Made by a program: the position numbers and the translations under genes
Shown here: piece after piece, positions 9,163 to 59,720 of the stretch
How the letters are laid out: the number at the start of each line of letters is the position of its first letter
How positions within the stretch are numbered: the stretch's first letter is position 1
Notes under the pieces: model-generated
What the model was told of the DNA's origin: nothing
The model's database searches: none
What the model saw: the letters and a program-made list of their open reading frames with translations, nothing else
Source: Acidobacteriota bacterium
GTDB taxonomy: Bacteria; Acidobacteriota; Vicinamibacteria; Vicinamibacterales; SCN-69-37
Assembly (NCBI GenBank): GCA_020853395.1
Contig: JADYYY010000003.1
Coordinates: 1-64,000, forward strand
Reading direction: 5' to 3'
Length of the DNA: 64,000 nucleotides

Positions 9163-9340
9163 GGTCATCGTGTCGTAGGGCGATCGCCTTCTCCTTCACC
9201 TCGCTGTAAGTGACGGGGCGAAGCTGTATCTGAGGCCGGCCCGACGCCCGCGCTTGCCAACCGCCGCGACGAGCCGGACGCGTTCAGGCCTCCGGCCAGG
9301 CTCCTGAGCAACTGCGCAACATCAACTGAGCAACGAGATC

Positions 9341-9964
9341 ATGCGTTCGATTCACGGCTGCCTGGCTCCGGCCTCGTTCGCCGGCCTGCTTTGCCTCGGT
9401 GTGGGCGCGGCGGGCTGTCAGTCTCCGTCGGCTGCCGCGAACGACGCGATCAAGACGGAGTCCGTGTACAACCGCCAGACGGGCCGGCTCGAGCAGCTCA
9501 AGGCCGACACCGACGGAAACGGCACGCTCGACGCGACCGCGCACCTCGACGGCACCGCGCTGAAAGACATCGAGATCGATCGCGACGGCGATGGCCTGCC
9601 GGACCGGTGGGAGTACTACGGCCCAGGGACATCCGGCGCGGGTGCCGCGGCCAACAAGTTCGATCGGTGGGCGGTGATCCTTCGCGCCGAGGAAGCGTCC
9701 CGGCCCGATGCTCCGCGCACCCGGCGCGAGCACTACGATCGCGGCATCCTGCAGCGGGTCGAAGAGGACACCGACCTCGACGGACGCATGGACAAGTGGG
9801 AGTTCTACACGCGGGGCGATCTGAGCCGCGTGGAACTCGACCTTTCGGGCAAGGGCGTTGCCGACCGCAGGCTCATCTATGGGCCGACCGGCGACGTCAT
9901 CCGGATCGAGCGCGACCGTCGCGGTGACGGGCATTTCGAGCCCATGGAGGAGCCTCGCCCGTGA
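9341..9964 (+). CDS. Lipoprotein with Asp-rich calcium-loop-like repeats
   Basis: This 207-residue protein starts with a signal peptide ending in a lipobox-like GAAGC near residue 26, so it is probably lipid-anchored. The mature part contains at least three acidic loops of the DxDxDG type (DTDGNGTLD, DRDGDGLPD, DTDLDGRMD) each followed by a W-E-Y/F-type segment, similar to thrombospondin-3 or EF-hand-like calcium loops. No enzyme family is recognisable. The stop overlaps the GTG of the following regulator by 4 bp, so the two are translationally coupled. A role in envelope or EPS sensing is a guess from position. Confidence 0.75.
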   Translation: MRSIHGCLAPASFAGLLCLGVGAAGCQSPSAAANDAIKTESVYNRQTGRLEQLKADTDGNGTLDATAHLDGTALKDIEIDRDGDGLPDRWEYYGPGTSGAGAAANKFDRWAVILRAEEASRPDAPRTRREHYDRGILQRVEEDTDLDGRMDKWEFYTRGDLSRVELDLSGKGVADRRLIYGPTGDVIRIERDRRGDGHFEPMEEPRP

Positions 9965-24134: not shown

Positions 24135-25351
24135 GGCGGACCGTGCTGCACGTCATCCCGTCGGTCGCTCCCCGCGACGGCGGGCCGAGCGCTGCGGTGC
24201 TCGGCATGGGCCGCGCGCTCCGGACTCTGGGCTGGGACGCGCAGATCGCCACGACGGACGCGGACGGTCGCACGCGCCTGCCGGTGGACCTCGGCCGCAC
24301 GGTCGACCATCACGGCGTGCCGACGATCTTCTTCGCGCGGGCACTTGGTGTCGGATTCAAGTGGTCTCCGGCGTTGGCGCAGTGGCTGAGGCAGCACGTG
24401 ACCGACTACGACGTGGTGCACGTCCACGCGGTGTTCTCGCACTCGTCGATGGCTGCCGGCCGTGCCTGTCAGGCGGCCGCCGTGCCGTACCTGGTGCGTC
24501 CGCTCGGCACGCTGGATCCCTGGAGCCTCGGTCGCAAGGCCTGGCGAAAACGTCTGCTCATGGCAGGCGCGGGCCGGCGTCTGCTCCGCGGCGCGGCCGC
24601 GATGCACTACACGACCGATGAAGAAGGACGACTCGCCGAAACGGCGCTGCGCGGGCTGCCGCGGCCGATCGTCGTGCCGAACGGCGTGGACGACGAGTGG
24701 TTCCAGGTCGGTCCGGCCGGCGCGAACGTCACGCCGCGGCTCCTCTCGATGTCGCGGCTGGATCCGAAGAAGGGCATCGACCGGCTGATCGCCGCGTTCC
24801 ATTCCATCGCCGACGAGCCGCACGCGCGGGCCTGGCGCTTGACGATCGCCGGCGACGGCGAGCCGTCGTACGTCTCGACGCTGCGGGCGCTTGCGCGCGA
24901 CGGCGCCGGACGCGGCCGCATCGACTTTCCGGGGTGGGTTCACGGCCGGGACAAACGCGCGTTGCTCGCGGCGTCGGCACTGTTCGTCCTGGCGTCGCGG
25001 CAGGAGAATTTCGGGATTGCGGCCGCTGAAGCGCTCGCCGCCGGCCTGCCGGTCGTGCTGTCGGCCGGCGTGAACCTCGCGCACGACGTTCGCGCGGCCG
25101 GTGCCGGGTGGACGGCCGGCGAGACCACGGAGGCGCTGGCCGATGTGCTCAGCCTCGCGATGCGAGGCGGCGAGGAACGCCGGCGCCGCGGGGCGCGCGG
25201 ACGCCGCATGGCCGAGGCGTTTCGGTGGCCGGCGGTCGCGGCCGCGCTGGTAGACGCGTATGTCACCGCGGCGTCGCCGGACACACCCACGCGATCGGCG
25301 GCCGGGGTCGTGCAATCGCACGCCGAAACACCGGCGCACGGGCTGAGCTGA
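24131..25351 (+). CDS. Glycosyltransferase family 4
   Basis: I chose the GTG at 24131, which overlaps the previous stop, giving VRRTVLHVIPSVAPRDGGPS; an ATG at 24113 is also in frame. The 406-residue protein has VVHVHAVFSHSSMAAGR, PRLLSMSRLDPKKGIDRL and LASRQENFGIAAAEALAAGLPVV, which are clear GT4 landmarks. The stop overlaps the asnB start by one base (TGATG). Confidence 0.92.
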   Translation: MRRTVLHVIPSVAPRDGGPSAAVLGMGRALRTLGWDAQIATTDADGRTRLPVDLGRTVDHHGVPTIFFARALGVGFKWSPALAQWLRQHVTDYDVVHVHAVFSHSSMAAGRACQAAAVPYLVRPLGTLDPWSLGRKAWRKRLLMAGAGRRLLRGAAAMHYTTDEEGRLAETALRGLPRPIVVPNGVDDEWFQVGPAGANVTPRLLSMSRLDPKKGIDRLIAAFHSIADEPHARAWRLTIAGDGEPSYVSTLRALARDGAGRGRIDFPGWVHGRDKRALLAASALFVLASRQENFGIAAAEALAAGLPVVLSAGVNLAHDVRAAGAGWTAGETTEALADVLSLAMRGGEERRRRGARGRRMAEAFRWPAVAAALVDAYVTAASPDTPTRSAAGVVQSHAETPAHGLS

Positions 25352-27282
25352 TGTGCGGGATCGCGGGCGTCATGTGCTGGGGTGAACCGCCGAATCCGGC
25401 GTCCATCGGCACCGTCGAGCGCATGGTGGCCTCTCTCGGACATCGAGGACCTGACGGCCGTGGCGTCGCTGTATGCGCGGGCGATCTCGATCACCGTGGG
25501 CCCGGTCCGCAGGTCGTGTTCGGGCACACGCGGCTCGCCATCCTCGATCTGTCGGAGCGTGGCGCACAGCCGATGCGGAGCGCCGACCGCGACGTCTGGA
25601 TCACGTTCAACGGCGAGATCTACAACTTCGCCGACTTGCGCGCCGAGCTCGAGCGGGACGGCGCGCGCTTCCAGAGCCGCACCGACACCGAGGTGCTCCT
25701 GCGCGGCTACGAGCGCTGGGGTGAGGACGTGGTCTTGCGGCTGCGAGGGATGTTCGCCTTCGCGATCTGGAACGGCGAACGGCGGACGCTGCTCGTGGCG
25801 CGAGATCGGCTGGGCATCAAACCGCTGTACTTCCATCGTGGCGATCGTTGCCTGCTGTTCGCGTCGGAGATTCGCGCGTTGCTCGCGAGCGGACACGTGG
25901 CCCGCCAGCTCGACCGCACGGCGCTCGCGACCTTCCTGGCGTACCAGTCGGTGCCGCCGCCGCGCACGCTCGTCGAGGGCGTCGAGATGCTGCCGCCCGG
26001 CACGCTGCTTCGCGTGGACGGCGCGGGGCAGGTGGTCGAGCGTCAGTACTGGGACCTGCTCGATGGAGCGGTGACGTCACCGCAGCACGATGGCGACGTG
26101 GGGCGCGCCCGTCGCGAGGTTCGCCGGCGCCTGGCGGAAGCGGCCGCGCTGCACCTCGTGAGCGACGTGCCGGTCGGCGTGTTCCTGTCGGGAGGGATTG
26201 ATTCGAGCGCGCTCGTCGCCCTGACCCGCGAGGCCGGCCGCGTCCCGCACACGTTCTCCGTCATCCTGCCGGGCAGTGCCGAGGACGAGAGCCGGCACGC
26301 GAGGGTGGTCGCTCGCCGGTTCGGCGCGGTGCACGAAGAGATCTCGCTGTCGGGGCAGGACGTTCGCCGGCAAATCCCCGAGGCGCTCGCGAGCGTGGAC
26401 CACCCGAGCGGCGACGGGATCAACACGTTTGTCGTCGCGCGCGCGGTGCGCACGGCGGGCGTGACGGTGGCACTGTCGGGCCTGGGAGGCGACGAGGTGT
26501 TCGGCGGCTACCCGTCGTTCGCCCGCATGCGCCGCCTCGCCGCACTGGGGCCGCTGTGGAAGCACTCGCCGCCGCCGCTGCGCCGGCTCGCGGCCGCGGC
26601 CGTGCGCGCGATTGGTGGTGAGTCGGTGCCGTCGACGAAAGCCGCCGCGGTGCTCGAGACCGACGCGAGCCTGCCGCGCGCGTTTCCGATCACGCGTCAG
26701 GTGTTCGACGAGGCCACCCGTGCTCGGTTGCTCGGACGGAGCCGGCCCGACGCCGACGATCCGTATGTCGCCTTGCTCGAGGAGGCGGCGTCGCGTTGTC
26801 GCGACGTCGAGGCGATGAGCCTCGTGTCGTACGCCGAGTGCCGGACGTACATGCACGACGTGCTGCTCCGAGACGCCGATCAGATGAGCATGGCGCACGG
26901 CGTGGAGGTCAGGGTGCCGTTGCTCGATCATCCCCTCGTCGAGCACGTGGTCGGCCTGCCGGCGTCGGTGAAGCTCGTCGCGGGACGGTCGAAGCCGCTG
27001 CTCGTCGACGCGCTCGATGGTCTGCTGCCGCCCGAGATCACCGAACGGCCCAAGCAGGGTTTCGTGCTGCCGTTCGCGGACTGGATGCGCACCGATCTGC
27101 GGAGCCTGTGCGAGCACCATCTCGGGCGCGGCGGCCTCGGCGGCCGCGAGGCGCTGGTCGCCGGCGCCATCGAGGACGTCTGGCAGCGGTTTCTCGCACG
27201 GGATCGGTCGACGAGCTGGTCGCGCCCGTGGGCGCTGGTCGCGCTGAACGCCTGGATGGAGGCCTGTGGCATCGAGGCCTGA
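25351..27282 (+). CDS. asnB: Asparagine synthetase, glutamine-hydrolysing, EPS-associated
   Basis: The 643-residue protein begins MCGIAGVM, so the catalytic Cys2 of the glutaminase domain is intact (about residues 1-190). The synthetase domain carries the PPi loop LSGGIDSSAL near residue 280, LSGLGGDEVFGGY, and PLLDHPLVEHV. In polysaccharide loci AsnB-type enzymes often amidate a uronic acid of the repeat unit rather than make free asparagine; here that is inferred from position only. It is flanked by transferases and overlaps the next gene by 17 bp. Confidence 0.92.
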   Translation: MCGIAGVMCWGEPPNPASIGTVERMVASLGHRGPDGRGVAVCAGDLDHRGPGPQVVFGHTRLAILDLSERGAQPMRSADRDVWITFNGEIYNFADLRAELERDGARFQSRTDTEVLLRGYERWGEDVVLRLRGMFAFAIWNGERRTLLVARDRLGIKPLYFHRGDRCLLFASEIRALLASGHVARQLDRTALATFLAYQSVPPPRTLVEGVEMLPPGTLLRVDGAGQVVERQYWDLLDGAVTSPQHDGDVGRARREVRRRLAEAAALHLVSDVPVGVFLSGGIDSSALVALTREAGRVPHTFSVILPGSAEDESRHARVVARRFGAVHEEISLSGQDVRRQIPEALASVDHPSGDGINTFVVARAVRTAGVTVALSGLGGDEVFGGYPSFARMRRLAALGPLWKHSPPPLRRLAAAAVRAIGGESVPSTKAAAVLETDASLPRAFPITRQVFDEATRARLLGRSRPDADDPYVALLEEAASRCRDVEAMSLVSYAECRTYMHDVLLRDADQMSMAHGVEVRVPLLDHPLVEHVVGLPASVKLVAGRSKPLLVDALDGLLPPEITERPKQGFVLPFADWMRTDLRSLCEHHLGRGGLGGREALVAGAIEDVWQRFLARDRSTSWSRPWALVALNAWMEACGIEA

Positions 27283-36643: not shown

Positions 36644-37747
36644 GTGCAGATGCTCGATCCGATCGCGGCCGTGCTGCGAGGCGATCCGTCCGGTGCGTTG
36701 GCTCTGGCGCCGCTCGACGCTGCGGAGGTCTGCGTGACGGCGAGGGCGCACGGTGTCTTGCCTCTGCTCGCCGACGCGCTCGCGGACTCGGAGATGGCGT
36801 CGATGCGGCGGGCGCTGGACGAAGCCGATCGTCCGCATGCCTGCCTCGACATGACGCGCGAGCAGCGGCTCCGCGAGCTGCTCGCGGCCTTCGACTCCGC
36901 CGGTGCGCCGGCGCTCTTGATGAAAGGTGCGGCGCTGGCCTATACGCACTACCCGCGCCCGGATCTGCGGCCGCGAATCGATACCGACGTGCTGGTCCGT
37001 CCGGCGGACCGCTCACGCGCCGAGGCCGCCTTGCGCGAGCAGGGCTACCGCGCCGTGGCCCAGGTGTCGGGTGACCTCGTCACGTCCCAGGCGGCGTTCA
37101 GCCGCGAGGAAGACGGCGTCAGCGTCCACACGGTGGACCTCCACTGGCAGATCGCCAATCCGCGCGTGTTCGCCGGCGTGCTCACGTTCGACGACGTGGC
37201 GGCGAACGCCGTGCCGGTGGCGGCCCTGGGGCCGTCCGCCCGCGCGCTCGGCGACGTGCATGCGCTGCTGCTCGCCTGCGTCCATCGCGTCGCGCACCAT
37301 GCGGCGTCCGACCGCTTGATTTGGATCTACGACGTGCACCTCATCGCATCGCGCTTGACCGACTCCGGCTGGCGCGCGCTCGCCGTGCTGGCGGATGCGC
37401 GCGGCGTCTCGCTGATTTGCCGACGGAGCCTCGAGCGAGCCGCGGCGTTGTTCGAGACGCCGGTACCTGCGCACGTCTGGGCCGATCCGCGCCTGGATCC
37501 CGCGACCCATCTGAATGAGTCGAGCGCCGGGTTCCTGACGACCACGAAAGGGCAGTGGCGGATCTTCTTGTCCGACGTGGCCGCGCTGACTCGCTGGCGC
37601 GATCGCGCGCACCTCGTGCGGGAGCACCTGTTTCCGCCTCCGGACTACATGAAGCGCGTGTACGCGCCGGCGAGCAGGGCGCCGCTCGGCTGGCTGTACG
37701 CCCAACGCGCCTGGCGCGGCGCGCGCAGATGGATGGCCCGGAGCTGA
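36644..37747 (+). CDS. Nucleotidyltransferase family protein (PF14907-like)
   Basis: The 367-residue protein shows the nucleotidyltransferase core ALLMKGAALAYTHYPRPDLR followed by RIDTDVLV, where the two aspartates match the metal-binding D-x-D of this fold. Members occur in polysaccharide loci and also in lasso-peptide clusters, where they are tailoring enzymes of uncertain chemistry. The start is GTG 36644 or ATG 36650, two codons later. It overlaps the next gene by 19 bp. Its role here could belong to either neighbouring system. Confidence 0.72.
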   Translation: MQMLDPIAAVLRGDPSGALALAPLDAAEVCVTARAHGVLPLLADALADSEMASMRRALDEADRPHACLDMTREQRLRELLAAFDSAGAPALLMKGAALAYTHYPRPDLRPRIDTDVLVRPADRSRAEAALREQGYRAVAQVSGDLVTSQAAFSREEDGVSVHTVDLHWQIANPRVFAGVLTFDDVAANAVPVAALGPSARALGDVHALLLACVHRVAHHAASDRLIWIYDVHLIASRLTDSGWRALAVLADARGVSLICRRSLERAAALFETPVPAHVWADPRLDPATHLNESSAGFLTTTKGQWRIFLSDVAALTRWRDRAHLVREHLFPPPDYMKRVYAPASRAPLGWLYAQRAWRGARRWMARS

Positions 37748-39147
37748 TCGTGGGGCGCCTCGATCGCTGGCTCGTCGCGTTGCTCGCGTGGGCCGCCCTC
37801 TCGTTCGGCGGCGTGTACGCCTGGGGCTACTGGTCGATCTCGCTCTGGGCCGCGGCGCTCGCCGTGTGGATCATCATGGCGACACGGGCGTGGCAGGACC
37901 AGGCCGTCCGCCTGATGGCCGCGAGCCTGGCCATCGTCGCCGCGACGATGCTCCTGCAGATCGTGCCGCTGCCTCGGAGCGTGTTCCTCGCGATCAGCCC
38001 GGCGGCGGACGCGATCCTGCGCGAGCTGGACGTCCAATACCTCATCCAGCCGCCGCCCTGGCACCCGCTGTCGGTGGCGCCCGCGTCCACCGCCACGGCC
38101 CTCGCGGTCTTCGTCGCGCTCTCGCTCTTGATGGTCGCGCTGACGCATGCGATGGCGCGGGTCGATCTGGACCGGCTCGTGGTCGGCATCACGGCGCTCG
38201 GCGCGGCGCTCGCCGTGTTCGCCGTGATGCAGCGCGCGGCGGACGTGCGCAGCGACGACGTTCAGCAGTGGAAGCTCGTCTATGGATTCTGGAAACCGGA
38301 GCAGGCGGGCGACGTGTTCGGGCCGTTCATCAACCGCAATCATTTCGCCGGCTGGATGCTCATGGCTGTACCGCTGGCGCTCGGCTATTCGTGCGCCGTC
38401 CTCGAGTCGGCCGGCCTTTCGGCGCACGACGGCTGGCGACGCTGGCTGCGATGGACGATGCGCCCTGCGGCGAGCCGGTTCATGACGTTGGCGCTCGCGG
38501 TCCTGGCGATGGGAGCGGCGCTCACCGCGAGCGGATCGCGGTCGGGCATGGCCAGCTTCGCGGTGGCGGTCGCCGTCCTGGCCGCTTTCGTCGCGATGCG
38601 TTTGGGACGGCGCCGTTTACGCACGGTGGCGGTCGCGTACCTGATGATCCTCCTCGTCGGCGCCATCGCCTGGGCTGGCGCCGGTCAAGCGGCGCATCGC
38701 TTCTCGCTCGCCTCGACCGACGCTGCCGGACGGTTGGCCGCCTGGCGCGACACGCTGCGCATCGTCCGCGACTTCCCGCTGTCGGGCACCGGCATCGGTG
38801 GGTATGGCCGAGCCATGCTCGTCTATCAGACCGCCGGCCGCGACACGTTCTACGCGCAGGCGCACAACGATTACCTCCAACTGGCGGCGGAAGGTGGCCT
38901 GCTCGTCGGCGCGCCGGCCGCCGCGTGCCTGGTGGCGCTCGTCGGCCGGATCCGCGCACGGATCGCCGGTCGCGGCGACCGCGCCGACGTCTATTGGATT
39001 CGGGCCGGTGCCATCGCTGGCCTCGCTGGCATCGCATCGCAGTCCCTCATGGATTTCAGCCTGCAGCTCGCGGGAAACGCCGTGCTCTTCGTCGTGCTCG
39101 TGTCCATCGCGCTTCACCGACCGTCTGCTCATGCGGCTCGCGTTTGA
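37729..39147 (+). CDS. O-antigen ligase / polymerase family membrane protein
   Basis: The 472-residue protein (ATG 37729; a GTG at 37750 is an alternative) has about eleven membrane segments and the Wzy_C/WaaL signature: INRNHFAGWMLM, LSGTGIGGYG and AQAHNDYLQLAAEGG in the large periplasmic loop. Such proteins join a lipid-linked glycan to lipid A, protein or another glycan. It is the second polymerase-type protein of the locus besides the one at 21661. It overlaps the next gene by 17 bp. Confidence 0.88.
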   Translation: MDGPELIVGRLDRWLVALLAWAALSFGGVYAWGYWSISLWAAALAVWIIMATRAWQDQAVRLMAASLAIVAATMLLQIVPLPRSVFLAISPAADAILRELDVQYLIQPPPWHPLSVAPASTATALAVFVALSLLMVALTHAMARVDLDRLVVGITALGAALAVFAVMQRAADVRSDDVQQWKLVYGFWKPEQAGDVFGPFINRNHFAGWMLMAVPLALGYSCAVLESAGLSAHDGWRRWLRWTMRPAASRFMTLALAVLAMGAALTASGSRSGMASFAVAVAVLAAFVAMRLGRRRLRTVAVAYLMILLVGAIAWAGAGQAAHRFSLASTDAAGRLAAWRDTLRIVRDFPLSGTGIGGYGRAMLVYQTAGRDTFYAQAHNDYLQLAAEGGLLVGAPAAACLVALVGRIRARIAGRGDRADVYWIRAGAIAGLAGIASQSLMDFSLQLAGNAVLFVVLVSIALHRPSAHAARV

Positions 39148-39850
39148 TCTAGACGGCGTGCTCGCCGATCTGCACGGCGCCTACGCCCGGGCCGCGCGGG
39201 CCTTGTACCCGGATCTCGACCCGGCGGCGTTGGCGTCGCCGAGCACGGGAGCGTCCCCGCCCCCGGACGAGCGCGACACGCCGAAGGAAGCACCTGAGGT
39301 CGAAGTCGACAGCCGGCCGGCGCTGACGCGCCAGCAATCGCACCTCGTCTGGAAACACATGTGCGCGCAGCCGAACTTCTGGGAGACGCTCGACGAGATC
39401 GAGCCAGGCGCGGTGGCCCGGCTCTACGAGCTTTCCGCCGCGCGGCGCTGGGAAGTGATCTTCCTGACCAGCCGGCCGTTCGCGCCCGGTGACACGCTGC
39501 AGCGGCAGACGCAGCGCTGGCTCGAGCGCTGCGGGTTCCGGCTCCCGAGCGTCTTCATCGTCCAGCAGGCACGGGGCAGAATCGCCGATGCGCTCGAGCT
39601 GGACGTCGTCGTGGACGACCGTCCCGAAGGCTGTCTCGACGTCGTGCTCGAGTCCAAGGCGCGCGGCATCCTCGTGTGGCGCGGTGAGCCGTCGACCGTG
39701 CCGGGCTCGGCGAAGCGGCTCGGCATCGGCGTCGTGCCATCCGTGGCTACGTGCCTCGACGTGCTCGTGCGCGCAGACGACGAGACGGCCGACGACGGGT
39801 TGATGGCGCGGCTGCGGCGGCTGCTCGGCCTCAAGACGGCGAGGCCCTGA
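39131..39850 (+). CDS. HAD-like phosphatase / 5'-nucleotidase-type protein
   Basis: The ATG at 39131 gives 239 residues starting MRLAFDLDGVLADLH, the HAD motif I with both aspartates. FLTSRP is motif II and VVVDDRPEGC is motif IV. The protein is probably a small-molecule phosphatase. In this locus it may act on sugar phosphates, or it may be a neighbour without a sugar role. A charged, proline-rich insert (about residues 37-60) looks disordered. Confidence 0.8.
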   Translation: MRLAFDLDGVLADLHGAYARAARALYPDLDPAALASPSTGASPPPDERDTPKEAPEVEVDSRPALTRQQSHLVWKHMCAQPNFWETLDEIEPGAVARLYELSAARRWEVIFLTSRPFAPGDTLQRQTQRWLERCGFRLPSVFIVQQARGRIADALELDVVVDDRPEGCLDVVLESKARGILVWRGEPSTVPGSAKRLGIGVVPSVATCLDVLVRADDETADDGLMARLRRLLGLKTARP

Positions 39851-39852
39851 CC

Positions 39853-40536
39853 ATGGCGGCGACGAGCGACGTCGGGCACGAACGGCTGATCGCCACGGCG
39901 CTCTCCGCCGGTGCGCGTCCCTGGGACCGGGCGCTCAAGCGGGCATTCGACGTCGCACTCTCCGGCCTCGGACTGATCGCATCCTGGCCCGTCTGGATCC
40001 TCGCCGCGATCGCGATCAAGCTCGAGGACGGCGGGCCGGTCTTCTACGCGCAGCCGCGGGTCGGCCTCCATGGCCGAGTGTTTCGCGTCCTGAAGTTCCG
40101 CTCCATGATCCCGGACGCGGAAGCGCGCGTGGGCGCCCTCCAGGCGTCGGCGGGTGATCCGCGCGTGACGAGGATCGGCCGTCTGATGCGGGCGACGGCC
40201 ATCGACGAGCTGCCTCAGTTGCTCAGCATCTTCACCGGAGACATGAGCTTCGTCGGGCCTCGGGCGCTGCGGCCGGGAGAAATCGAAGTCGGATCGGCTG
40301 GCGAGCACGTGGCGCTCGAAGACGTGCCGGGCTTCGCGGTCCGGTGCCAGGTTCGCCCTGGACTCACTGGTCTTGCCCAGATCTTCGCGCCGCGGGATCT
40401 TCCGAGACGTCACAAGTTCCGATACGACCGTGTGTACATCCGGCGGCAGTCGTTCGCTCTCGACGTGCGTCTGGTGGCCGTGTCCTTCTGGATCAGCGCG
40501 CGCGGTGCCTGGGAGCGCCGTGGCCGGAAGTTCTGA
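39853..40536 (+). CDS. Initiating sugar-phosphate transferase (PglC-like, bacterial sugar transferase)
   Basis: This enzyme places the first sugar phosphate on undecaprenyl phosphate and so starts each EPS repeat. The ATG at 39853 gives 227 residues: one membrane segment with KRAFDVALSGLGLI, then the family blocks FRVLKFRSM, IDELPQLLSIFTGDMSFVGPR and RPGLTGLAQIF. It is the short, monotopic form without the four extra helices of WcaJ. It follows the HAD gene by 2 bp. Confidence 0.95.
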   Translation: MAATSDVGHERLIATALSAGARPWDRALKRAFDVALSGLGLIASWPVWILAAIAIKLEDGGPVFYAQPRVGLHGRVFRVLKFRSMIPDAEARVGALQASAGDPRVTRIGRLMRATAIDELPQLLSIFTGDMSFVGPRALRPGEIEVGSAGEHVALEDVPGFAVRCQVRPGLTGLAQIFAPRDLPRRHKFRYDRVYIRRQSFALDVRLVAVSFWISARGAWERRGRKF

Positions 40537-42770: not shown

Positions 42771-43061
42771 GTGACCACAGAACCGCACGTCGGCGCGCGC
42801 GTGACGGTGCCGGCGCACGTCGTCGTCCGGATCATGCGCGACACGACCGTGCTGCTGAACAGCCGGACCGGCCGCTACTTCACGCTCGACGACGTCGGGA
42901 CGAGCGCGTGGAACCTGCTGGTGGTATCGCCGTCGCTCGGTGAAGCGTACGACGCGCTCCTGCGGGAGTACGACGTCGCGCCGGACGATCTGCGCCGCGA
43001 TCTCGACGCCCTCGTCGACCGGCTCGTCGTGGAGGGACTGCTGGAGCGTGTCGGTGCCTGA
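42771..43061 (+). CDS. PqqD-like RiPP recognition protein (lasso B1 type)
   Basis: PqqD-like proteins bind the leader of a precursor peptide and present it to the modifying enzymes. The GTG at 42771 gives 96 residues with VVVRIMRDTTVLLNSRTGRYFTLDDVGTSAWNLL in two blocks and DLDALVDRLVVEGLLERV, the complete winged-helix pattern. A longer frame from ATG 42723 adds residues without family character. A weak -10 (TAACCT, 42757) would place transcription start beside the GTG. It overlaps the B2 gene by 8 bp, the standard B1-B2 order of lasso clusters. Confidence 0.88.
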   Translation: MTTEPHVGARVTVPAHVVVRIMRDTTVLLNSRTGRYFTLDDVGTSAWNLLVVSPSLGEAYDALLREYDVAPDDLRRDLDALVDRLVVEGLLERVGA

Positions 43062-43536
43062 TGCTCAGTCGGCCGCGCAGCGGCGCGGACCGGCCTCGAC
43101 CTGGCGAGCGATGACGTGGGCCGATCGCGCGTTGCTGCTCCATGCCGGGCTGCTGATGCTCGCCGCGAGCGCGGTGCTGAAGATCGCGACGTTCAACCGC
43201 GTACACGAACGCCTCGCACGGTTCCGGCCGGCGCAATCGCCGCGGGCAGCCACCGCTGACGCCCACGGCGCGGAGCGGCTGGCCCGAATCGTCGACATGG
43301 CGTCGCGCCACGTACCGTTCGGCGGCGCCTGCCTACAGCGGTCGCTGGTTCTCTGGTGGCTGCTCCAGCGTCGCGGCATGCCTGGAGTCATTCGCGTCGG
43401 GGCTCGAAGGAGCGACGCCGGGTTCCATGCGCACGCCTGGGTGGAACTCGAGGGCCGGCCGCTCGGCGACAGCGATCGCCGCGCGGTGGACGAGTACCTG
43501 CCGATGCCGTGGCTGCCGGCGGACCGGCGGCGATGA
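43054..43536 (+). CDS. Lasso-peptide B2-type leader protease (transglutaminase-like)
   Basis: B2 proteins cut the leader off the precursor. The 160-residue protein (GTG 43054; ATG 43111 also in frame) has a helical, hydrophobic N-terminus, then the catalytic cysteine in GGACLQRSLVLWWLLQRRG and histidine in DAGFHAHAWVELEG, followed by an aspartate in PLGDSD. The Cys-His-Asp set matches Transglut_core3 proteins of lasso clusters. It ends with a 4-bp overlap to the methyltransferase. Confidence 0.9.
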   Translation: MPDAQSAAQRRGPASTWRAMTWADRALLLHAGLLMLAASAVLKIATFNRVHERLARFRPAQSPRAATADAHGAERLARIVDMASRHVPFGGACLQRSLVLWWLLQRRGMPGVIRVGARRSDAGFHAHAWVELEGRPLGDSDRRAVDEYLPMPWLPADRRR

Positions 43537-44654
43537 GCTACGCGGACGTGTCCAGCCACCGGCCGATGGCGCTCGACGCCGTCCGCAACGGCGCGTACGA
43601 GCGGGCGCTCGCGCGCGTCGTGACCCCCGACAGCGTGGTGCTCGACCTCGGCGCCGGCACGGGCGTGCTGGGGCTGATTGCAGCCCGGCTCGGTGCGCGG
43701 CGCGTCTTCCTGGTGGAGCCGGAAGACATCCTGCAGGTCGCCGAGGAGGTGGTGGCCGCCAATGGGCTGCAGGATCGGGTGACCTGCCTGCACGCGCGGA
43801 TCGAGGACGTGACGCTCCCCGAGCGCGCGGACGTCATCGTGTCCGTGATGACGGGCAACCTCGTCGTCACGGAAGATCTCTTGCCAGCGTTGCTTCACGC
43901 GCGCGACGCGATGCTCGCGCCGGGCGGCGTGTTGATTCCCGGCGCCGCCGCGCTGGAGGTTGCGCCGGTCTCGGTCCCGGCGCTGCACGACAAGCACGTG
44001 GCGGCCTGGTCCGTTCCTCAGTGCGGCGTGGATCTGGGCGCCGTACGGCCATATGCGACCAACACGCTGTACTTCGAACGAGACGCACTCCGGCAGGCGG
44101 ACTGGCTTTCGCCGCCACAGCGGCTGAAGACGATCGACTTCGGGCGCGACGACTACACGCCCGTGCACGCGGCCGTCGAGTACGAGATCGAGCGGCCCGG
44201 CGTCTGCCATGGCTGGGCCGGCTGGACGTGCCTGGCGATCGGCGATGACTGGCTGTCGACGTCACCGTTCGCCCCGGCCGTCCATTGGGCCGCGGCGTTT
44301 CTTCCGCTCGATCCGCCGCTGACGGTGGCCGCGGGCGATCGGCTCACGCTGGAGCTTGCTCGAGCTCCGCGCGGAGACTGGACCTGGGTGACGAGCACGT
44401 CCACTGAAACACAGCGGCATTCGACGCTGCTCGGAACGCCCATGACCTCGGCGACCCTTCGGCGCGCCTCGGTGCACTACCGTCCATCGCTGAACGCCGA
44501 CGGCCGCGCGCTGCTCGGCGTCCTCACGGCGTGTGACGGCAGGTCGGATGTCGCGGCGCTGGCGTCGGCGCTCCGGGCGGCACAGCCGGGCCGATGGGAC
44601 GTGGCGGACGCGATCGCGTTCGTGCAACGCGCGATCAAGAGCTTCGCGTCCTGA
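43533..44654 (+). CDS. SAM-dependent methyltransferase, PRMT-like, with PqqD-like C-terminal region
   Basis: The 373-residue protein has the class I SAM site VVLDLGAGTGVLGLIAARLGA (in two blocks) with LVEPEDILQ and a beta-barrel-like second half, the layout of protein arginine methyltransferases. The last ~60 residues (LNADGRALLGVLTACDGRSD and on) resemble a PqqD-type winged helix, which would let it bind the precursor leader directly. It sits inside the RiPP cluster by overlap (ATGA), so a peptide is the likely substrate. The methylated residue is unknown. Confidence 0.8.
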   Translation: MSYADVSSHRPMALDAVRNGAYERALARVVTPDSVVLDLGAGTGVLGLIAARLGARRVFLVEPEDILQVAEEVVAANGLQDRVTCLHARIEDVTLPERADVIVSVMTGNLVVTEDLLPALLHARDAMLAPGGVLIPGAAALEVAPVSVPALHDKHVAAWSVPQCGVDLGAVRPYATNTLYFERDALRQADWLSPPQRLKTIDFGRDDYTPVHAAVEYEIERPGVCHGWAGWTCLAIGDDWLSTSPFAPAVHWAAAFLPLDPPLTVAAGDRLTLELARAPRGDWTWVTSTSTETQRHSTLLGTPMTSATLRRASVHYRPSLNADGRALLGVLTACDGRSDVAALASALRAAQPGRWDVADAIAFVQRAIKSFAS

Positions 44655-44659
44655 CCCTC

Positions 44660-44950
44660 ATGACGCGTCCGCGCGATCGTCTCGCATTCGCTCCCGACGT
44701 CGTCTTCCAGCTCATCGGCGAGGATGCGCTGCTCTTGAAGCTCGATACCGAGGTGGTGTTCTCGCTCAATGCGACCGGGGCGCGCGTGGCCGAGCTCATC
44801 GGGCGCCACAGTCGTGCGGAGGCCATCGTCGCGGCGCTCGCCGAGGAATATGGGCTGTCACGCGAGGCGATTGCGCCCGACGTCACCGCCTTGCTCGACG
44901 CGCTCGCGGCGCGTGAGTTGATCACATGGCGACCGTCGGAAGACCCGTGA
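44660..44950 (+). CDS. Second PqqD-like RiPP recognition protein
   Basis: This 96-residue protein repeats the PqqD pattern: VVFQLIGEDALLLKLDTEVV, FSLNATGARVAELI and VTALLDALAARELI. It is clearly diverged from the first copy at 42771. The gene is 5 bp after the methyltransferase and overlaps the cyclase frame (GTGA), so it may serve the cyclase while the first copy serves the B2 protease, or the reverse. Two separate B1-type proteins in one lasso-type cluster are unusual. Confidence 0.87.
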   Translation: MTRPRDRLAFAPDVVFQLIGEDALLLKLDTEVVFSLNATGARVAELIGRHSRAEAIVAALAEEYGLSREAIAPDVTALLDALAARELITWRPSEDP

Positions 44951-46839
44951 TCGCCGCGCCGGCGGCCCCGGTGTCTCTGCCGCAGTGGTACGCCCGGGTC
45001 TCGTTCGACGTGCGTGACCGCGCGCATGCGTCGATGTCCGGCGTGCCGTGCCGCCACGCCGGACCGTTCACGGTGTATCGCCCGGAAACGGCTGAAGCGC
45101 TGCTGTGGGCGAACGGCACGCGCGCGCTGATCTTCGACGGGTATCTCTTCGACCGCGAGCGGACGGCACGGGAGCTCGGATGTGCAGAGCAGGCGTCCAA
45201 CGCGACGCTGGTATCCGCCGCATTCGATCGGCACGGCACGGGCGTCTTCGACGCGCTCGACGGCTGCTACGTCGCGGCGATCTGGGACGGCGAGACCGGA
45301 CGGCTGATCGCGGGGCACGATGCACTGGGACGCCATCCCGTGTTCTACGCCCGAACCGCTGACGCTCTCTGGCTGTCGTCGAACGTGCTGAGCCTGGCGG
45401 CGAGCGGTGCGGTGCCGGTCGAGCCCAACCGCGTGTCGCTGGCGTTGCTCGGCCTTCGCTATTGGCCCGAGGCGGGCGAGACGTTCTTCCAGGCCGTGCG
45501 CCGCGTTCGGCCAGGGCACTACCTCGTCGCGACGGCCGGCGGAACGCCGACCGAGCATCGACATTGGGATCCGCTGCCCGCTGACGACGAGCCGTGGTTG
45601 CCGGAAGCGCAGGTGCTCGACGAGTTCGAGCCGGCGCTGACCCGCGCCGTCGAGCGCTGCCTGAGCCTGACGCCACAGGGCATCATGCTGAGCGGCGGCG
45701 TCGACTCGGTGACGATTGCCGCGCTGGCCTGTGCGCACCTCCGCGCGCATGGGCAGCCGCCGCTCGTCGCCGTGTCGGGGCGCACCGGCGGCCCGTTGTC
45801 GTCGGAAGAGGTGATGCAGTCGCGCGTGACGGCGGCGCTCGGCATGCCTCACGTGATCAGCACGACGCCTGAGTGGCGACGGGGCCGCGATCACGTCCGG
45901 CTCTCGCTCGACGTCACGCCGGAGCTGCCCTCGCCGTCGAACGTCTACTGGGTGGGGACGTACACGGGCTTCTACCGCCGGACGGCCGCCGATGGTCTCC
46001 GCGTGCTCCTGACCGGATCGGGAGGCGACAACTGGCTCAGCGTTGGCGACGCGCACGCCGCGGATCTGCTCGCTCGTGGCCGTGGCGTCCAGTTGTACAG
46101 GTTCCTGCGATCGGACATGACGACGGGCGGTGCGGCCCTGAACGAGGTGCTCTATCGCCGGCTGTGGGCGTTCGGCATCCGCCCGCACGTCGACGTGTGG
46201 TGGGCGAGGCTGGCTCCCGCGCGCAAGCGGCGTTATCACCGTCGTCGATGGGAGGAGCGGTTGCCCGCCTGGCTGGCGCCGGATCGCGAGCTACGTGAGG
46301 ACGTGATCGAGCGGTTGCTCGCGCGCCGGACGCCGGCGCTCGCGGCGGATGGACGCGCGCCACGGAGCCACTACCGTCACGCCCTGCGGTCCTACGCCAA
46401 TCCCTACATGCACCACGAGAACGAGACGGCGTTTCACGTCGACGCGCTCTGCGGCGTGCGGCTGCTGAGCCCGTATCACGACAAACGCCTCGTATCGTTC
46501 TTCAATCGCATCGCACCCGCGACGCTCGTGCACGGCACCCGGTACAAGGGATTGCTGCGACCCGTGGTCGCACGGCACCTTCCATCCCTGGGCCTCGATC
46601 GCCAGCGGAAGGACTATCCGGCGGATCACGCCGCAGAGGAACTCGCCGCGCTGCGGTCGTCAATCACCGCGGTCTGGCCTGATTACCAATTTGACATCCT
46701 CGCAGGGCTCGGGGTCGTCGACGCTTCGCGCCTGTCGGCCGAGCGCGGAGCGTTTCACCGCGCCGGTTTCGACGGGCTTGCCCGAATGTACGGCCTGCTG
46801 AGCGCCGAGCGGTGGCTGCAGGCTCGCTCGAATTCGTAA
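44947..46839 (+). CDS. Asparagine-synthetase-like cyclase (lasso C type)
   Basis: Lasso cyclases adenylate an Asp/Glu side chain of the core and close it on the N-terminal amine. The 630-residue protein (GTG 44947 overlapping pqqD; ATG 44926 also in frame) has both asparagine-synthetase domains, but the N-terminal Met-Cys is missing, so the glutaminase half is inactive as in known lasso C proteins. The ATP-pyrophosphatase loop LSGGVDSVTI is intact near residue 248, as is LLTGSGGDNWLS. The contrast with the intact AsnB at 25351 is clear. Confidence 0.9.
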   Translation: MIAAPAAPVSLPQWYARVSFDVRDRAHASMSGVPCRHAGPFTVYRPETAEALLWANGTRALIFDGYLFDRERTARELGCAEQASNATLVSAAFDRHGTGVFDALDGCYVAAIWDGETGRLIAGHDALGRHPVFYARTADALWLSSNVLSLAASGAVPVEPNRVSLALLGLRYWPEAGETFFQAVRRVRPGHYLVATAGGTPTEHRHWDPLPADDEPWLPEAQVLDEFEPALTRAVERCLSLTPQGIMLSGGVDSVTIAALACAHLRAHGQPPLVAVSGRTGGPLSSEEVMQSRVTAALGMPHVISTTPEWRRGRDHVRLSLDVTPELPSPSNVYWVGTYTGFYRRTAADGLRVLLTGSGGDNWLSVGDAHAADLLARGRGVQLYRFLRSDMTTGGAALNEVLYRRLWAFGIRPHVDVWWARLAPARKRRYHRRRWEERLPAWLAPDRELREDVIERLLARRTPALAADGRAPRSHYRHALRSYANPYMHHENETAFHVDALCGVRLLSPYHDKRLVSFFNRIAPATLVHGTRYKGLLRPVVARHLPSLGLDRQRKDYPADHAAEELAALRSSITAVWPDYQFDILAGLGVVDASRLSAERGAFHRAGFDGLARMYGLLSAERWLQARSNS

Positions 46840-46915
46840 TCCGACGTCGGTCGGCCGCGCGTGGCAGGCGCATCGTCGTGTCGTGTTCGCGGCCTGTCGC
46901 GCGACGTATCTGTGG

Positions 46916-46921
46916 TACAAC
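46916..46921 (+). promoter_or_regulatory. Extended -10 candidate in front of the precursor gene
   Basis: TACAAC at 46916-46921 preceded by TG one base upstream forms an extended -10 box. No good -35 is visible. A start near 46928 would give the precursor and kinase their own transcript in addition to read-through from the cyclase. Confidence 0.35.
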
Positions 46922-46965
46922 TGCGGTGCCGGCTTGCCCTGTGGAGGCCGAGGAGGAGTCCGCGA

Positions 46966-47142
46966 ATGGACGCGAAGCGTGACGACAAGGCGGAGACGCC
47001 GGTGAGCAAGCGAGCGTGGCACAGCCCTCGGCTCGAGCAGTTGGGCAGCCTTCGCGATTTCGTGCGCGAAGGCAATGCATTCGGCAAGTCCGGTCCCGGA
47101 GCCGACGGCATGACGTCCGGCAACAACGAAGCGATGATGTAG
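46966..47142 (+). CDS. RiPP precursor peptide with lasso-type leader motif
   Basis: A 58-residue peptide with AGGAGG (46951-46956) 9 bp before its ATG. The leader carries W18-x-x-P21-x-L23-x-x-x-G27, matching the YxxPxLxxxG leader motif that PqqD-like proteins recognise, with Trp for Tyr. The usual Thr six residues later is Val33. The C-terminal part is Gly/Ser/Asn-rich. The only glycine-start ring of lasso size is G40 to D47 (8 residues), leaving an 11-residue tail ending Met-Met. It sits between the cyclase and the kinase. Precursor identity is well supported by context; the core boundaries are not. Confidence 0.75.
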   Translation: MDAKRDDKAETPVSKRAWHSPRLEQLGSLRDFVREGNAFGKSGPGADGMTSGNNEAMM

Positions 47143-47157
47143 TCACCGGGCTGCGGA

Positions 47158-48030
47158 ATGGAAGTGTGGGTCGAGCCAGTCATCGAATGGCAGGCTCGCT
47201 CGGATTCAGAGGCGCAGCACCGTGCGCTGGCCGCCTCGGGCGAACGGCTGGCCCGGTGGCCGCCCGCACCCAGCGACGACGGCCCGACCGATTGCTTCCG
47301 TCTCGGCCAGGAGTTCTGGATCTGGCAGACCGCTCTCGGAGGTCTTCGCTTCAGTCCCGATCATCCCTCGTGTTCGGCGTTCCCGTCGATTGACGTCGAT
47401 CGCTCGTGGTTCGAACATGTCGTGACGCGCAGTTGGCTGCCCGCCGTGTACCAGGTGTGGGGACGCCAGGTGCTGCACGCCAGCGCGGCGGTGCACGTGG
47501 AGACCGGCGACGTCGTGGCGTTTGCCGGGCCCAGTGGCGCGGGCAAGTCGACGTTGGCCTATGGGTTGGGGACGATGGCCGGATGGCGGCCGTTGACGGA
47601 CGACACCCTGGCGTTCTCCGTCATCGACGGCCGGATCCATCTGCATCCGCTCCCCAATCACGTGCGTCTCAGGCCGGCCAGCGCCGAGCACTTCGGCGTT
47701 CGAAACGACGTCGCTTCCCGAGTCCTTGCGTGGCCCGAGGGGCCGCTCGCCCTCGCGTGCGTCTACTTCCTGGAACCACACGAAGCGGACGGTCCGCTCG
47801 CCGAGCGTGATGCGCTCAGGGCGGGCGAGAGTTATCCGCAGCTCCTCGGTCAGGCCCACGCGTTCACGCTCGAGCTTCCCGATCAGAATCAGCGGCTGAT
47901 GCGCGATTACCTCACGCTGGCTGCTTCGGTGCCGATCGCGCGCCTTCGCTATCGGCGCGGATTCGCGGACCTCGAGCGCGTGCTCGATGTCGTCGCCCGG
48001 GCAGAGGCGGCGCGGAGGGCCGTGAGGTAG
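47158..48030 (+). CDS. HPr-kinase-like protein of the RiPP cluster
   Basis: The 290-residue protein has a central P-loop AFAGPSGAGKSTLAYGLG (Walker A about 124-132) followed by WRPLTDDTLAF, as in the HPr kinase/phosphorylase fold. The N-terminal HPr-K domain and HPr itself are absent. Relatives in lasso clusters (the paeninodin type) phosphorylate the C-terminal serine of the precursor; here the core ends in methionine, so another residue or product must be the target. It lies 15 bp after the precursor stop. Confidence 0.82.
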   Translation: MEVWVEPVIEWQARSDSEAQHRALAASGERLARWPPAPSDDGPTDCFRLGQEFWIWQTALGGLRFSPDHPSCSAFPSIDVDRSWFEHVVTRSWLPAVYQVWGRQVLHASAAVHVETGDVVAFAGPSGAGKSTLAYGLGTMAGWRPLTDDTLAFSVIDGRIHLHPLPNHVRLRPASAEHFGVRNDVASRVLAWPEGPLALACVYFLEPHEADGPLAERDALRAGESYPQLLGQAHAFTLELPDQNQRLMRDYLTLAASVPIARLRYRRGFADLERVLDVVARAEAARRAVR

Positions 48031-57169: not shown

Positions 57170-57341
57170 GCGCCGGTAAACGCCGGTCCGCCGGCACAGG
57201 TATTACGCAGCGCACATCAGAAGTGTGTACCGCCCCGCGATGGCGGGGAGGACGGCGCAACCGCGGCGAGCCGGCCGCCGGCGCGGGGCGTGGGGTGACG
57301 GGCCACGCCCGGCAGGGAATCCGTTCGTGGGAGACGCAGCC
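57170..57341 (+). other. Structured leader before the PQQ dehydrogenase gene
   Basis: Two hairpins are visible: CCCCGC/GCGGGG (57233-57238 with 57243-57248) and GGGCGTGG/CCACGCCC (57286-57293 with 57303-57310). No T-run follows either. I recognise no riboswitch family. Confidence 0.35.
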
Positions 57342-59720
57342 ATGGCATCGAGTCATCGACAGAACCAGTCCTCGGGCAGAGGACGCGCGAGGGCCAGCGC
57401 GCACGCCGTGTTCACGGTGCTGGCCGCGGCGTTGATCGCCGTCGTCACGGTGAGCGTCGGCTCGGCCGCACGGAGCGACAAGTGGTGGTGGGACAACCTC
57501 GCCGGCCCCGACAGCTCGAACTTCGTCGGCGCCGATCAGGTCACCAAGGCGAACGTGAGCCGGCTCGAGGTGGCGTGGTTCTACCCGTACGCCACCTCGG
57601 GTTTCAACCCGATCGCCGTGGACAACGTCATCTACACGGCCGCCCGCGGCAACGCGCTCGTCGCACTGGACGCGACGACGGGCAAGGAGATCTGGGTCCA
57701 CGACAACCTCGGCGGCGCGGCTCGCGGCATCAACTACTGGCAGAGCGACAACGGCAAGGACAAGCGGCTGATCTTCTGGATCAACAGCTTCATGCAGGAG
57801 ATCGACGCCGCAACCGGCAAGTCGATCACGTCGTTCGGCACGAACGGGTACGTGGATCTACGCGAAGGCCTGGCGCGCGCCGAGAACACCGGCGCGACGG
57901 TGGCATCGCGGAGCCCCGGCAAGGTCTGGAAGAACCTCATCATCCTGGGCTCGGCGCCCGGAGAAGCGTGGATCTCGCCGCCGGGTGACATCCGGGCCTA
58001 CGACGTCGTCACCGGCAAGCGGGTGTGGCAGTTCCACACGGTGCCGCTGCCCGGCGAGTTCGGCTATGAGACCTGGCCGAAGGACGCCTACAAGTACGTC
58101 GGCGGCGCGAACAACTGGGGGTCGATGGCGGTCGACGACGAGCGGGGCATCGTCTACATCCCGACCGGCTCGCCGACCTACGACTTCTACGGCGCCGATC
58201 GCCGCGGCACGAACCTCTTCGGCAACTGCCTGCTCGCGCTGGACGCGCGGACCGGCAAGCGTCTCTGGCACTTCCAGACCGTCCATCACGATCTCTGGGA
58301 CCTCGACAACGTCTCGGCTCCGCAGCTCGTGACGGTCCGCCACAACGGCCGCCGCGTCGACGCGGTGGCGCACGCTGGCAAGACCGGGTTCCTCTACGTG
58401 TTCGACCGTGTGACCGGCGAGCCGCTGTGGCCGATCGAAGAGCGGCCGGTGCCGCAGACCGACGTGCCGGGTGAGTACTCGCATCCGACGCAGCCGTTTC
58501 CGACGAAACCCGCGCCGTTCGGCAAGCAGAGCTTCACCGTGGACGACGTGAACCCGTGGCTCGTGACGCCGGAACAGTACGAAGACGTGAAGCAGCGCGT
58601 CGCGAAGGCGCGCAACGGTACCGGGCCGCAGGGGGGCCTCTTCATTCCGCCGGCGGTGGACCAGGAAACCGTGTCCATGCCCGGCAACCAGGGCGGATCC
58701 AACTGGGGAACGACGGCCGCCGACCCCGAGAAGGGCATGGTGTTCGTCGTCAACGTCAATCAGGTCGCGCTGCTGAAGCTCGTGGACGTGAGGACGTACA
58801 CCGGGCGTGGGGGCGGCGCCGGCGCGCTCATCGCGACCGGGGCGGCCGTGTTCCAGCAGAACTGCGCCGTGTGCCACGGCACCGATCTGAACGGCGCGAT
58901 GCCTGGCGTTCCGTCGCTCGTGGGCGTCTCGAACCGGATGGCGGAGGACGCGATCAAGGCGATCATCACCGGAGGCAAGGGGCTGATGCGGCCGTTCCCT
59001 GACCTGTCGCCTTCCGATCTCGATGCCGTCACGGCGTTCGTCAGCAATCCGACGGGCCGGGGCGGTGGCGCCGGGTTCGGGCGTGGCCGGGGCGGCGCGG
59101 CTCCGAGCCTGCCGCCAGGGCCCGTGGTGGCCAGCGGCGGTGTGCCGCTGCCTGCGCTGCCGCCGCGCGGCGGCGGCGGCCCCAGGTTCGGCGGTGCCGG
59201 GCCGACCGGCGGCGACGCCGCCTATCCGGGGGACGTGGAGAACGCACCGACCGTGCGCTACGCCAGCGGCTACAACGTGATGGCGCAGTACACGAAGCCG
59301 CCGTACACGACGCTGACGGCCTACGACCTCAATACCGGCGAGATCAAGTGGCAGGTCCCGAACGGCGACCACCCGCCGACGATCGCGCGCGGCGGTCCGA
59401 CGAACACCGGCGGGGTTGCGGCGCGCAACGGCGTTGTCGTCACGAAGGGCGGCCTCGTCTTCCATGCGGGCGGCGACGGCAAGATCCGGGCATATGACGA
59501 GCAGACCGGTGGCGTGCTCTGGACCGGCACGTTCACCGGCAGCACGAGCGGCGTACCCGTGGGGTACGAGGCGAAAGGGCGGCAGTACTTCGCGCTGATC
59601 GCGAGCCAGGGCGGCGGGCGTGGTGGCGGTGGAGGAGCGCGCGGCGGCGCCCCGGCGCCACCCGTGGATCCGAACACGCCGACCGGCCTCATCGCGTACG
59701 CGTTGCCGGTGCGGAAATAG
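57342..59720 (+). CDS. PQQ-dependent dehydrogenase with internal cytochrome c domain
   Basis: The 792-residue exported protein (ATG 57342 after GGGAG) has a membrane/signal segment and an eight-bladed PQQ propeller with tryptophan-docking repeats such as ALDATTGKEIW, ALDARTGKRLW and YDEQTGGVLWTG. A heme c domain with CAVCH (about residue 508) and the axial-methionine candidate in GLMRPFPDLS is inserted near residues 490-570, followed by a Gly-rich linker, before the last blades. It oxidises an alcohol or sugar in the periplasm and passes electrons through the heme. The substrate is unknown. Confidence 0.9.
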   Translation: MASSHRQNQSSGRGRARASAHAVFTVLAAALIAVVTVSVGSAARSDKWWWDNLAGPDSSNFVGADQVTKANVSRLEVAWFYPYATSGFNPIAVDNVIYTAARGNALVALDATTGKEIWVHDNLGGAARGINYWQSDNGKDKRLIFWINSFMQEIDAATGKSITSFGTNGYVDLREGLARAENTGATVASRSPGKVWKNLIILGSAPGEAWISPPGDIRAYDVVTGKRVWQFHTVPLPGEFGYETWPKDAYKYVGGANNWGSMAVDDERGIVYIPTGSPTYDFYGADRRGTNLFGNCLLALDARTGKRLWHFQTVHHDLWDLDNVSAPQLVTVRHNGRRVDAVAHAGKTGFLYVFDRVTGEPLWPIEERPVPQTDVPGEYSHPTQPFPTKPAPFGKQSFTVDDVNPWLVTPEQYEDVKQRVAKARNGTGPQGGLFIPPAVDQETVSMPGNQGGSNWGTTAADPEKGMVFVVNVNQVALLKLVDVRTYTGRGGGAGALIATGAAVFQQNCAVCHGTDLNGAMPGVPSLVGVSNRMAEDAIKAIITGGKGLMRPFPDLSPSDLDAVTAFVSNPTGRGGGAGFGRGRGGAAPSLPPGPVVASGGVPLPALPPRGGGGPRFGGAGPTGGDAAYPGDVENAPTVRYASGYNVMAQYTKPPYTTLTAYDLNTGEIKWQVPNGDHPPTIARGGPTNTGGVAARNGVVVTKGGLVFHAGGDGKIRAYDEQTGGVLWTGTFTGSTSGVPVGYEAKGRQYFALIASQGGGRGGGGGARGGAPAPPVDPNTPTGLIAYALPVRK

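Follow-up and report, generated by a model that had tools for sequence, protein, structure and literature searches.

The gene cluster at positions 42771-48030 of the window, a stretch of 64,000 nucleotides from contig JADYYY010000003.1 of an Acidobacteriota bacterium (assembly GCA_020853395.1), raises the question of whether its product is a lasso peptide or a peptide with a differently placed ring. The original prediction, made from the sequence alone, described the cluster as a lasso-type pathway for a ribosomally synthesized and post-translationally modified peptide (RiPP) with an unusual gene set. Our analysis identified the locus as a phosphorylated lasso-type RiPP pathway, in which the new elements are a methyltransferase of the protein arginine methyltransferase (PRMT) fold, a doubled RiPP recognition element (RRE), a displaced acceptor with a Lys-Asp module, and a class-wide linkage to polysaccharide genes. 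On balance, it is probable that the product is phosphorylated and methylated, that its ring is formed by a Lys-x5/6-Asp unit (K7-D13), and that it is tied to polysaccharide. The gene set, the homologies, the clade of the cyclase, the Lys-Asp module, and the genomic linkage are shown by the sequences themselves.

Gene order and the displaced acid of the precursor

The seven genes (B1a, B2, MT, B1b, C, A, and K) are all encoded on the + strand and largely overlap. B1a shares 8 nucleotides with B2, B2 shares four with MT, and B1b shares 25 with C, while gaps of five, 126, and 15 nucleotides separate MT from B1b, C from A, and A from K, respectively. Coordinates and family searches agreed with the predicted series of mostly overlapping genes, and neither an exporter nor an isopeptidase was found inside the cluster, as had also been proposed. 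The cluster is not a chance assembly, because related genomes hold the same genes and a precursor together. A search for the gene order in other genomes, suggested at the outset, recovered an identical B1-B2-MT-C-A-K order with a single B1 in an Anaerolineae genome (L002).

The 58-amino-acid precursor A (46966-47142, + strand) was read directly from the sequence, with a GAGGAGG ribosome-binding site immediately 5' of it. It includes the leader motif WHSPRL...G...VR and the predicted core EGNAFGKSGPGADGMTSGNNEAMM. Homologous precursors were found beside the cyclase in L002, L033-L037, L039, and L040, whose cyclases belong to a single group, here named clade I. When the conserved W/Y of the leader was set at -17, the core of the window contained acidic residues at positions 1, 13, and 21 and none at positions 7, 8, or 9, where an Asp or Glu is expected of a lasso peptide, and the leader carried Val instead of Thr at -2. 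Among canonical related precursors, an acid at positions 7-9 was present in 21 of 24, nearly all of these at position 8. Since this feature was looked for and is missing by the standard numbering, the locus should not be classed as a lasso peptide proper. The prediction of a lasso-type cluster thus stands in that B1, B2, C, and A are all present, while the strict lasso assignment is not established. The first acid downstream of residue 1 is Asp13, which is the likely acceptor.

The position of this Asp varied within clade I: it was found at 9 (L002, L035, and L037), 11 (L036 and L040), 12 (L033, L034, and L039), and 13 (the window). In all nine cores, a Lys was followed by the acid 6-7 residues on, as opposed to three of the 24 canonical cores. 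The offset of this pair from the leader changed at least twice in the C tree, with Lys and Asp shifting together. The pair [VL][QRK] occupied -2/-1 in all nine precursors, with constant spacing to the leader motif. The sequences of the fixed pair speak for a normal leader cut, and those of the constant Lys-Asp span speak for a ring unit that would be independent of the leader. A precedent for Ile/Val at -2 is the BsfA precursor, which has Ile at this position and is cleaved at the usual site (PMC10368454).

Several other precursors deviated in their own ways. L099 and L110 contain Thr at -2 and a first acid at position 10, one past the textbook range. In L048 (contig C54 of genome G045, approximately 9192-9402), the precursor TCGITTKATGNMLRVCL is located beside C, B2, MT, and K and has a predicted core without any Asp or Glu; its close relatives carry TTKD, and the region also holds a second MT homolog. 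L051 (contig C63 of genome G083, 10031-10772) encodes three tandem lasso-type precursors with a near-identical ring SGGSTRxE and a C-terminal CL.

Cyclase C and clade I

C (44926-46839, + strand), a predicted AsnB-like macrolactam synthetase, matched Asn_synthase (PF00733, 85.5 bits) and GATase_7 (43 bits). It lacks Cys2, as the protein begins with MATV, which confirmed the original description of an asparagine-synthetase-like cyclase without this residue. The ATP motif SGG.DS and a GxxGD-type motif were invariant. The AlphaFold2 (AF2) model had a predicted local distance difference test (pLDDT) score of 88, and its best Foldseek match was TsnB9, followed by beta-lactam and carbapenam synthetases and AsnB; the modeled fold resembles that of the amide-forming beta-lactam synthetases.

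Searches with C against whole genomes and one public collection identified ten C proteins that formed one clade with a support of 100/100. Besides the window and L002, clade I included eight genomes from the class of the window, which were arranged as (B1)-C-A-K-B2 where the contig permits reading and had no MT. The window and L002 share the layout B1-B2-MT-(B1b)-C-A-K. No further members were found in 396 phylum-wide genomes or in 400 genomes of the L002 phylum, L002 was the only addition from the public contig collection, and a plasmid search returned distant asparagine synthases only. Wherever the contig of a clade I relative extends far enough, a precursor was located directly 3' of the cyclase, which answers the concern, voiced with the original prediction, that it might not be conserved there.

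Leader-binding proteins and leader peptidase

B1a (42771-43061, + strand, GTG start) and B1b (44660-44950, + strand, overlapping C) matched PF05402 with 57.4 and 55.2 bits, respectively, consistent with the two PqqD copies first noticed. For both, the closest full-length relative with a solved structure was the lasso RRE TbiB1 (E-values of 2.8e-8 and 1.4e-8), so a lasso-type RRE is present in two proteins. In the tree, B1a fell near the B1s of canonical clusters, a loose grouping with low support, and B1b clustered with the B1 of L002 at moderate to weak support. A second PqqD has so far been seen in the window locus only and appears to be the sole component particular to it.

B2 (43054-43536, + strand, GTG start) is the predicted leader peptidase. 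It matched Transglut_core3 (PF13471) with 80.5 bits, a family whose absence would have undermined the original prediction, and no other Transglut_core3 protein was found in the genome. A candidate Cys-His-Asp triad was located in GGACLQRS, FHAHAWVE, and LGDS. The comparison with lasso profiles that had been proposed for B1, B2, and C gave a divided outcome: B2 scored 82.1 bits against NF033537 (lasso_biosyn_B2) with a cut-off of 33, while B1a scored 46 bits against lasso_PqqD_Strm, under that model's own cut-off of 70, and C also fell below its cut-offs.

Kinase and PRMT-fold methyltransferase

K (47158-48030, + strand) is an HprK-type peptide kinase with a P-loop, and its LHASA, FAGPSGAGKST, and TDD segments follow the H..G..G.GKS..DD pattern published for BsfK, which phosphorylates a core Ser (PMC10368454). 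K scored 32.7 bits against TIGR04352 (HprK_rel_A), with a cut-off of 200, and reached no HprK-related curated cut-off. In phosphorylated lasso-type RiPPs (PadeK/BsfK), the target is a C-terminal Ser or a Ser third in the core. Neither was found here, as the precursor ends in Met and residue 3 is Asn; a Ser at position 3 arises only if the core begins at Gly6.

MT (43533-44654, + strand) matched Methyltransf_25 and PRMT_C (36 bits) and ends in a three-helix extension. The PRMT fold, in line with the PRMT-like methyltransferase of the original prediction, was found by both sequence (PRMT6, phmmer E-value of 1.5e-41) and predicted structure (AF2 model with a pLDDT of 91; Foldseek match to PRMT6 with an E-value of 1.6e-27). 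In PRMTs, the two Glu of the double-E loop bind the guanidinium. In the corresponding loop of MT, SVMTGNLVVTED, the first Glu is replaced by Val (SVMTG) and the second is retained, as is the HW of the THW loop; these positions were assigned from those that we take to be the loop positions of PRMT1. Arginine methylation was rejected as a function, since judging from its sequence MT is probably not an arginine methyltransferase, given the lost first Glu and a predicted core without Arg. A third RRE in the C-terminal extension was also rejected, as hhalign against the B1 set gave a probability of 3% and the AF2 model includes only a three-helix bundle there.

The MT family was present in 33 of the 193 genomes of the window's class. 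It is therefore a tailoring partner that recurs, not an isolated case: in about 25 of the 30 loci inspected, other components of a lasso-type cluster (kinase, C, B2, B1, or precursor) were located within approximately 1.5 kb of MT. A literature search that joined lasso peptides with arginine methyltransferases returned only an off-topic preprint. Separately, the precursors of many canonical MT-bearing clusters (L083-L091, L093, and L096) end in a Cys-Leu dipeptide, a possible signal for processing or modification.

Comparison with known systems

Lasso clusters with a kinase are already known, as in PadeK of paeninodin and BsfK (PMC9266682, PMC10368454). One close likeness is the bsf cluster of Bradymonas sediminis (BsfA/B1/B2/C/D/K/N; PMC10368454), which shares with the window split B1 and B2 proteins, C, an HprK-type kinase with the same motif, Ile/Val at -2, a leader of the YxxPxL type (WxxPxL in the window), and a predicted nucleotidyltransferase partner. 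Unlike the window, it has Gly1 and Asp8 in BsfA by the same numbering, an ABC transporter, one B1, and no methyltransferase. Similarly, paeninodin (PadeK) and pseudomycoidin (PsmK, PsmN) combine lasso enzymes with a peptide kinase, and the psm nucleotidyltransferase is linked to a hexose on the phospho-Ser, but these kinases act on a C-terminal Ser and no PRMT-fold enzyme was reported there (PMC9266682).

Methyltransferase genes also occur within the lasso clusters of lassomycin (StspM) and lihuanodin (LihM); however, these enzymes are O-methyltransferases of other families (StspM-type and PIMT homologs; PMC9266682), whereas MT has the PRMT fold with a dimerization barrel. The type I PRMTs, such as PRMT6 and CARM1, resemble MT in the fold, the S-adenosylmethionine domain, the PRMT_C domain, and the HW of the THW loop, and differ from it in the double-E Glu, the extra C-terminal part, and the Arg missing from the predicted core of A. 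The cluster is less unusual than originally held, because kinase-bearing lasso clusters are known and MT recurs in the class. What remains of the claim that the gene combination belongs to no standard class is the apparently unique second B1.

Linkage to polysaccharide genes

A large exopolysaccharide locus occupies positions 13308-41000, upstream of the RiPP cluster. It encodes Poly_export and a Wzc-like tyrosine autokinase (13-16 kb), several glycosyltransferases, a Wzt-type ABC ATPase, a carbamoyltransferase, and a geranylgeranyl-reductase-like protein, and it has its own full-length asparagine synthase (25060-27279). Five kb upstream of the RiPP genes, it includes a candidate N, an NTP_transf_5 nucleotidyltransferase (36644-37747, + strand; PF14907, 135 bits at 36716-37453). 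According to Pfam, a Wzy_C O-antigen ligase, an NT5C-like phosphatase, and a Bac_transf protein are encoded at 37555-40536 (+ strand), and their homologs occur near RiPP clusters in many relatives. The NTP_transf_5 gene, the polysaccharide setting, and the lack of an acid at core positions 7-9 were absent from the original prediction.

The linkage was examined in 20 genomes picked solely for their RiPP genes, counting genes that share a contig with these and lie no more than 16 kb away. NTP_transf_5 was found in 17 of the 20, where approximately 0.3 would be expected, and the sugar-phosphate transferase Bac_transf in 15 (approximately 0.5 expected); as the genomes are related, the chance probabilities calculated for this linkage are indicative only. 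Several of the misses were short contigs or contig ends. In L002, the NTP_transf_5 gene adjoins B1. PsmN and BsfN presumably belong to the same Pfam family as NTP_transf_5. The kinase is accompanied by nucleotidyltransferase genes in both psm and bsf (PMC9266682, PMC10368454), and PsmN is linked to the hexose on phospho-Ser (PMC9266682). Together, this suggests peptides that are decorated with sugar or active at the cell surface. Literature that joins lasso peptides, exopolysaccharide, and a nucleotidyltransferase was searched for, and nothing was found beyond an Aneurinibacillus genome paper.

Proposed pathway and alternative readings

From these data we infer both the reactions and what the polysaccharide genes do, as follows. 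B1a and B1b would present the precursor, bound through its leader (W-x2-P-x-L...G). K would phosphorylate a core Ser, probably Ser8 of GKSGPGAD, and MT would methylate the peptide, probably not at Arg. B2 would cleave between Val(-2)-Arg(-1) and the core to release the leader, and C would adenylate Asp13, so that attack by an upstream amine closes a macrolactam. The ring-forming unit would be the conserved Lys-x5/6-Asp (K7-D13) instead of the usual residue 1 to 7-9; the candidate amines are those of Glu1, of the Lys side chain, and, if the peptide is trimmed further, of Gly6 or Lys7. The product would probably be linked to the cell-surface polysaccharide of the neighboring genes, possibly with an NTP_transf_5-dependent sugar decoration.

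Several points weigh against this proposal. By the standard numbering, positions 7-9 are free of acid and Glu1 would be an odd first residue. C scored only 86 and 91 bits against curated lasso cyclase models with cut-offs of 525 and 300. Although none of 20,000 within-core shuffles reached nine cores with the Lys-acid span (the maximum was seven), the small number of lineages behind the nine precursors makes the test overstate their independence, and it was run only once the span had been spotted; the sequence pattern shows a module, not a probability. Additionally, genome linkage is no proof of shared function, and NTP_transf_5 and Bac_transf also occur alone in polysaccharide loci.

The ring itself could arise in different ways. 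If B2 or a later aminopeptidase leaves Gly6 at the N terminus, the product would be a lasso peptide of the ordinary kind whose leader is simply longer. GKSGPGAD looks like a canonical eight-residue ring from G1 to D8, the phospho-Ser3 would match that of BsfA, which has Gly1, phospho-Ser3, and Asp8 (PMC10368454), and canonical relatives of the form x-K2-...-acid8 exist (TKGGNRAD, TKGSTAWE, and LKGTTQSE). This is possible rather than probable: the [VL]-[QRK] fixed in all nine clade I leaders suggests a normal cut, and the register would need to differ by one, three, or five residues between relatives. Alternatively, C could link the side-chain amine of Lys7 to Asp13. The ring would then be internal, with the N-terminal tail left free, so that the distance to the leader would be irrelevant. 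Such a ring accounts for a Lys-Asp span that stays at 6-7 while the leader offset is two, four, or six residues, for the Lys in nine of nine clade I cores, and for an unconstrained residue 1 (E, G, Q, T, or A). Nevertheless, it appears somewhat unlikely, as the Lys may be retained because it is recognized or modified, and we know of no lasso C enzyme that closes a ring with a side-chain amine. An enlarged ring of 13 residues, made after the normal cut from the Glu1 alpha-amine to Asp13 and perhaps unthreaded, would agree with the fixed -2/-1 residues, the separate clade of the C proteins, and the acid at 10 in L099 and L110. It is quite unlikely, since its size would range from 9 to 13 among relatives, while reviews place the acid at 7-9 and report that a change of ring size by one residue already lowers production (PMC9266682, PMC13352647).

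A pathway outside the RiPPs would have the PqqD-like proteins serve pyrroloquinoline quinone (PQQ) synthesis and C act as a polysaccharide amidotransferase. The window does encode a PQQ-dependent dehydrogenase with a cytochrome c domain (57186-59717), approximately 9 kb from the PqqD-like genes, and the asparagine synthase of the exopolysaccharide locus is a homolog of the polysaccharide type. However, B1b scored 30.1 bits against the PQQ-biosynthesis PqqD model TIGR03859 (cut-off of 46) and B1a had no match, and PQQ biosynthesis was rejected on these cut-offs as the reason for the two genes. Given also that TbiB1 is the nearest full-length solved relative of each B1, that B2 passes the lasso B2 model, and that the precursor recurs beside C, this reading is highly improbable.

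Returning to the lasso-type pathway with a Lys-Asp ring unit, its most far-reaching form would have C ignore the N terminus of the peptide and join the Lys side chain to the Asp 6-7 residues on, yielding an internal-ring peptide, phosphorylated and methylated, which would be bound to the surface polysaccharide of the neighboring locus or act jointly with it; we consider this form rather unlikely. If the ring is not formed between residue 1 and 7-9, the usual genome rule for lasso peptides misses clade I, and the C enzymes of this clade would extend the range of products made by lasso-type enzymes. The class-wide link to sugar-phosphate transferase and nucleotidyltransferase genes is a lead to the role of phosphorylated lasso-type peptides, which may lie at the cell surface.

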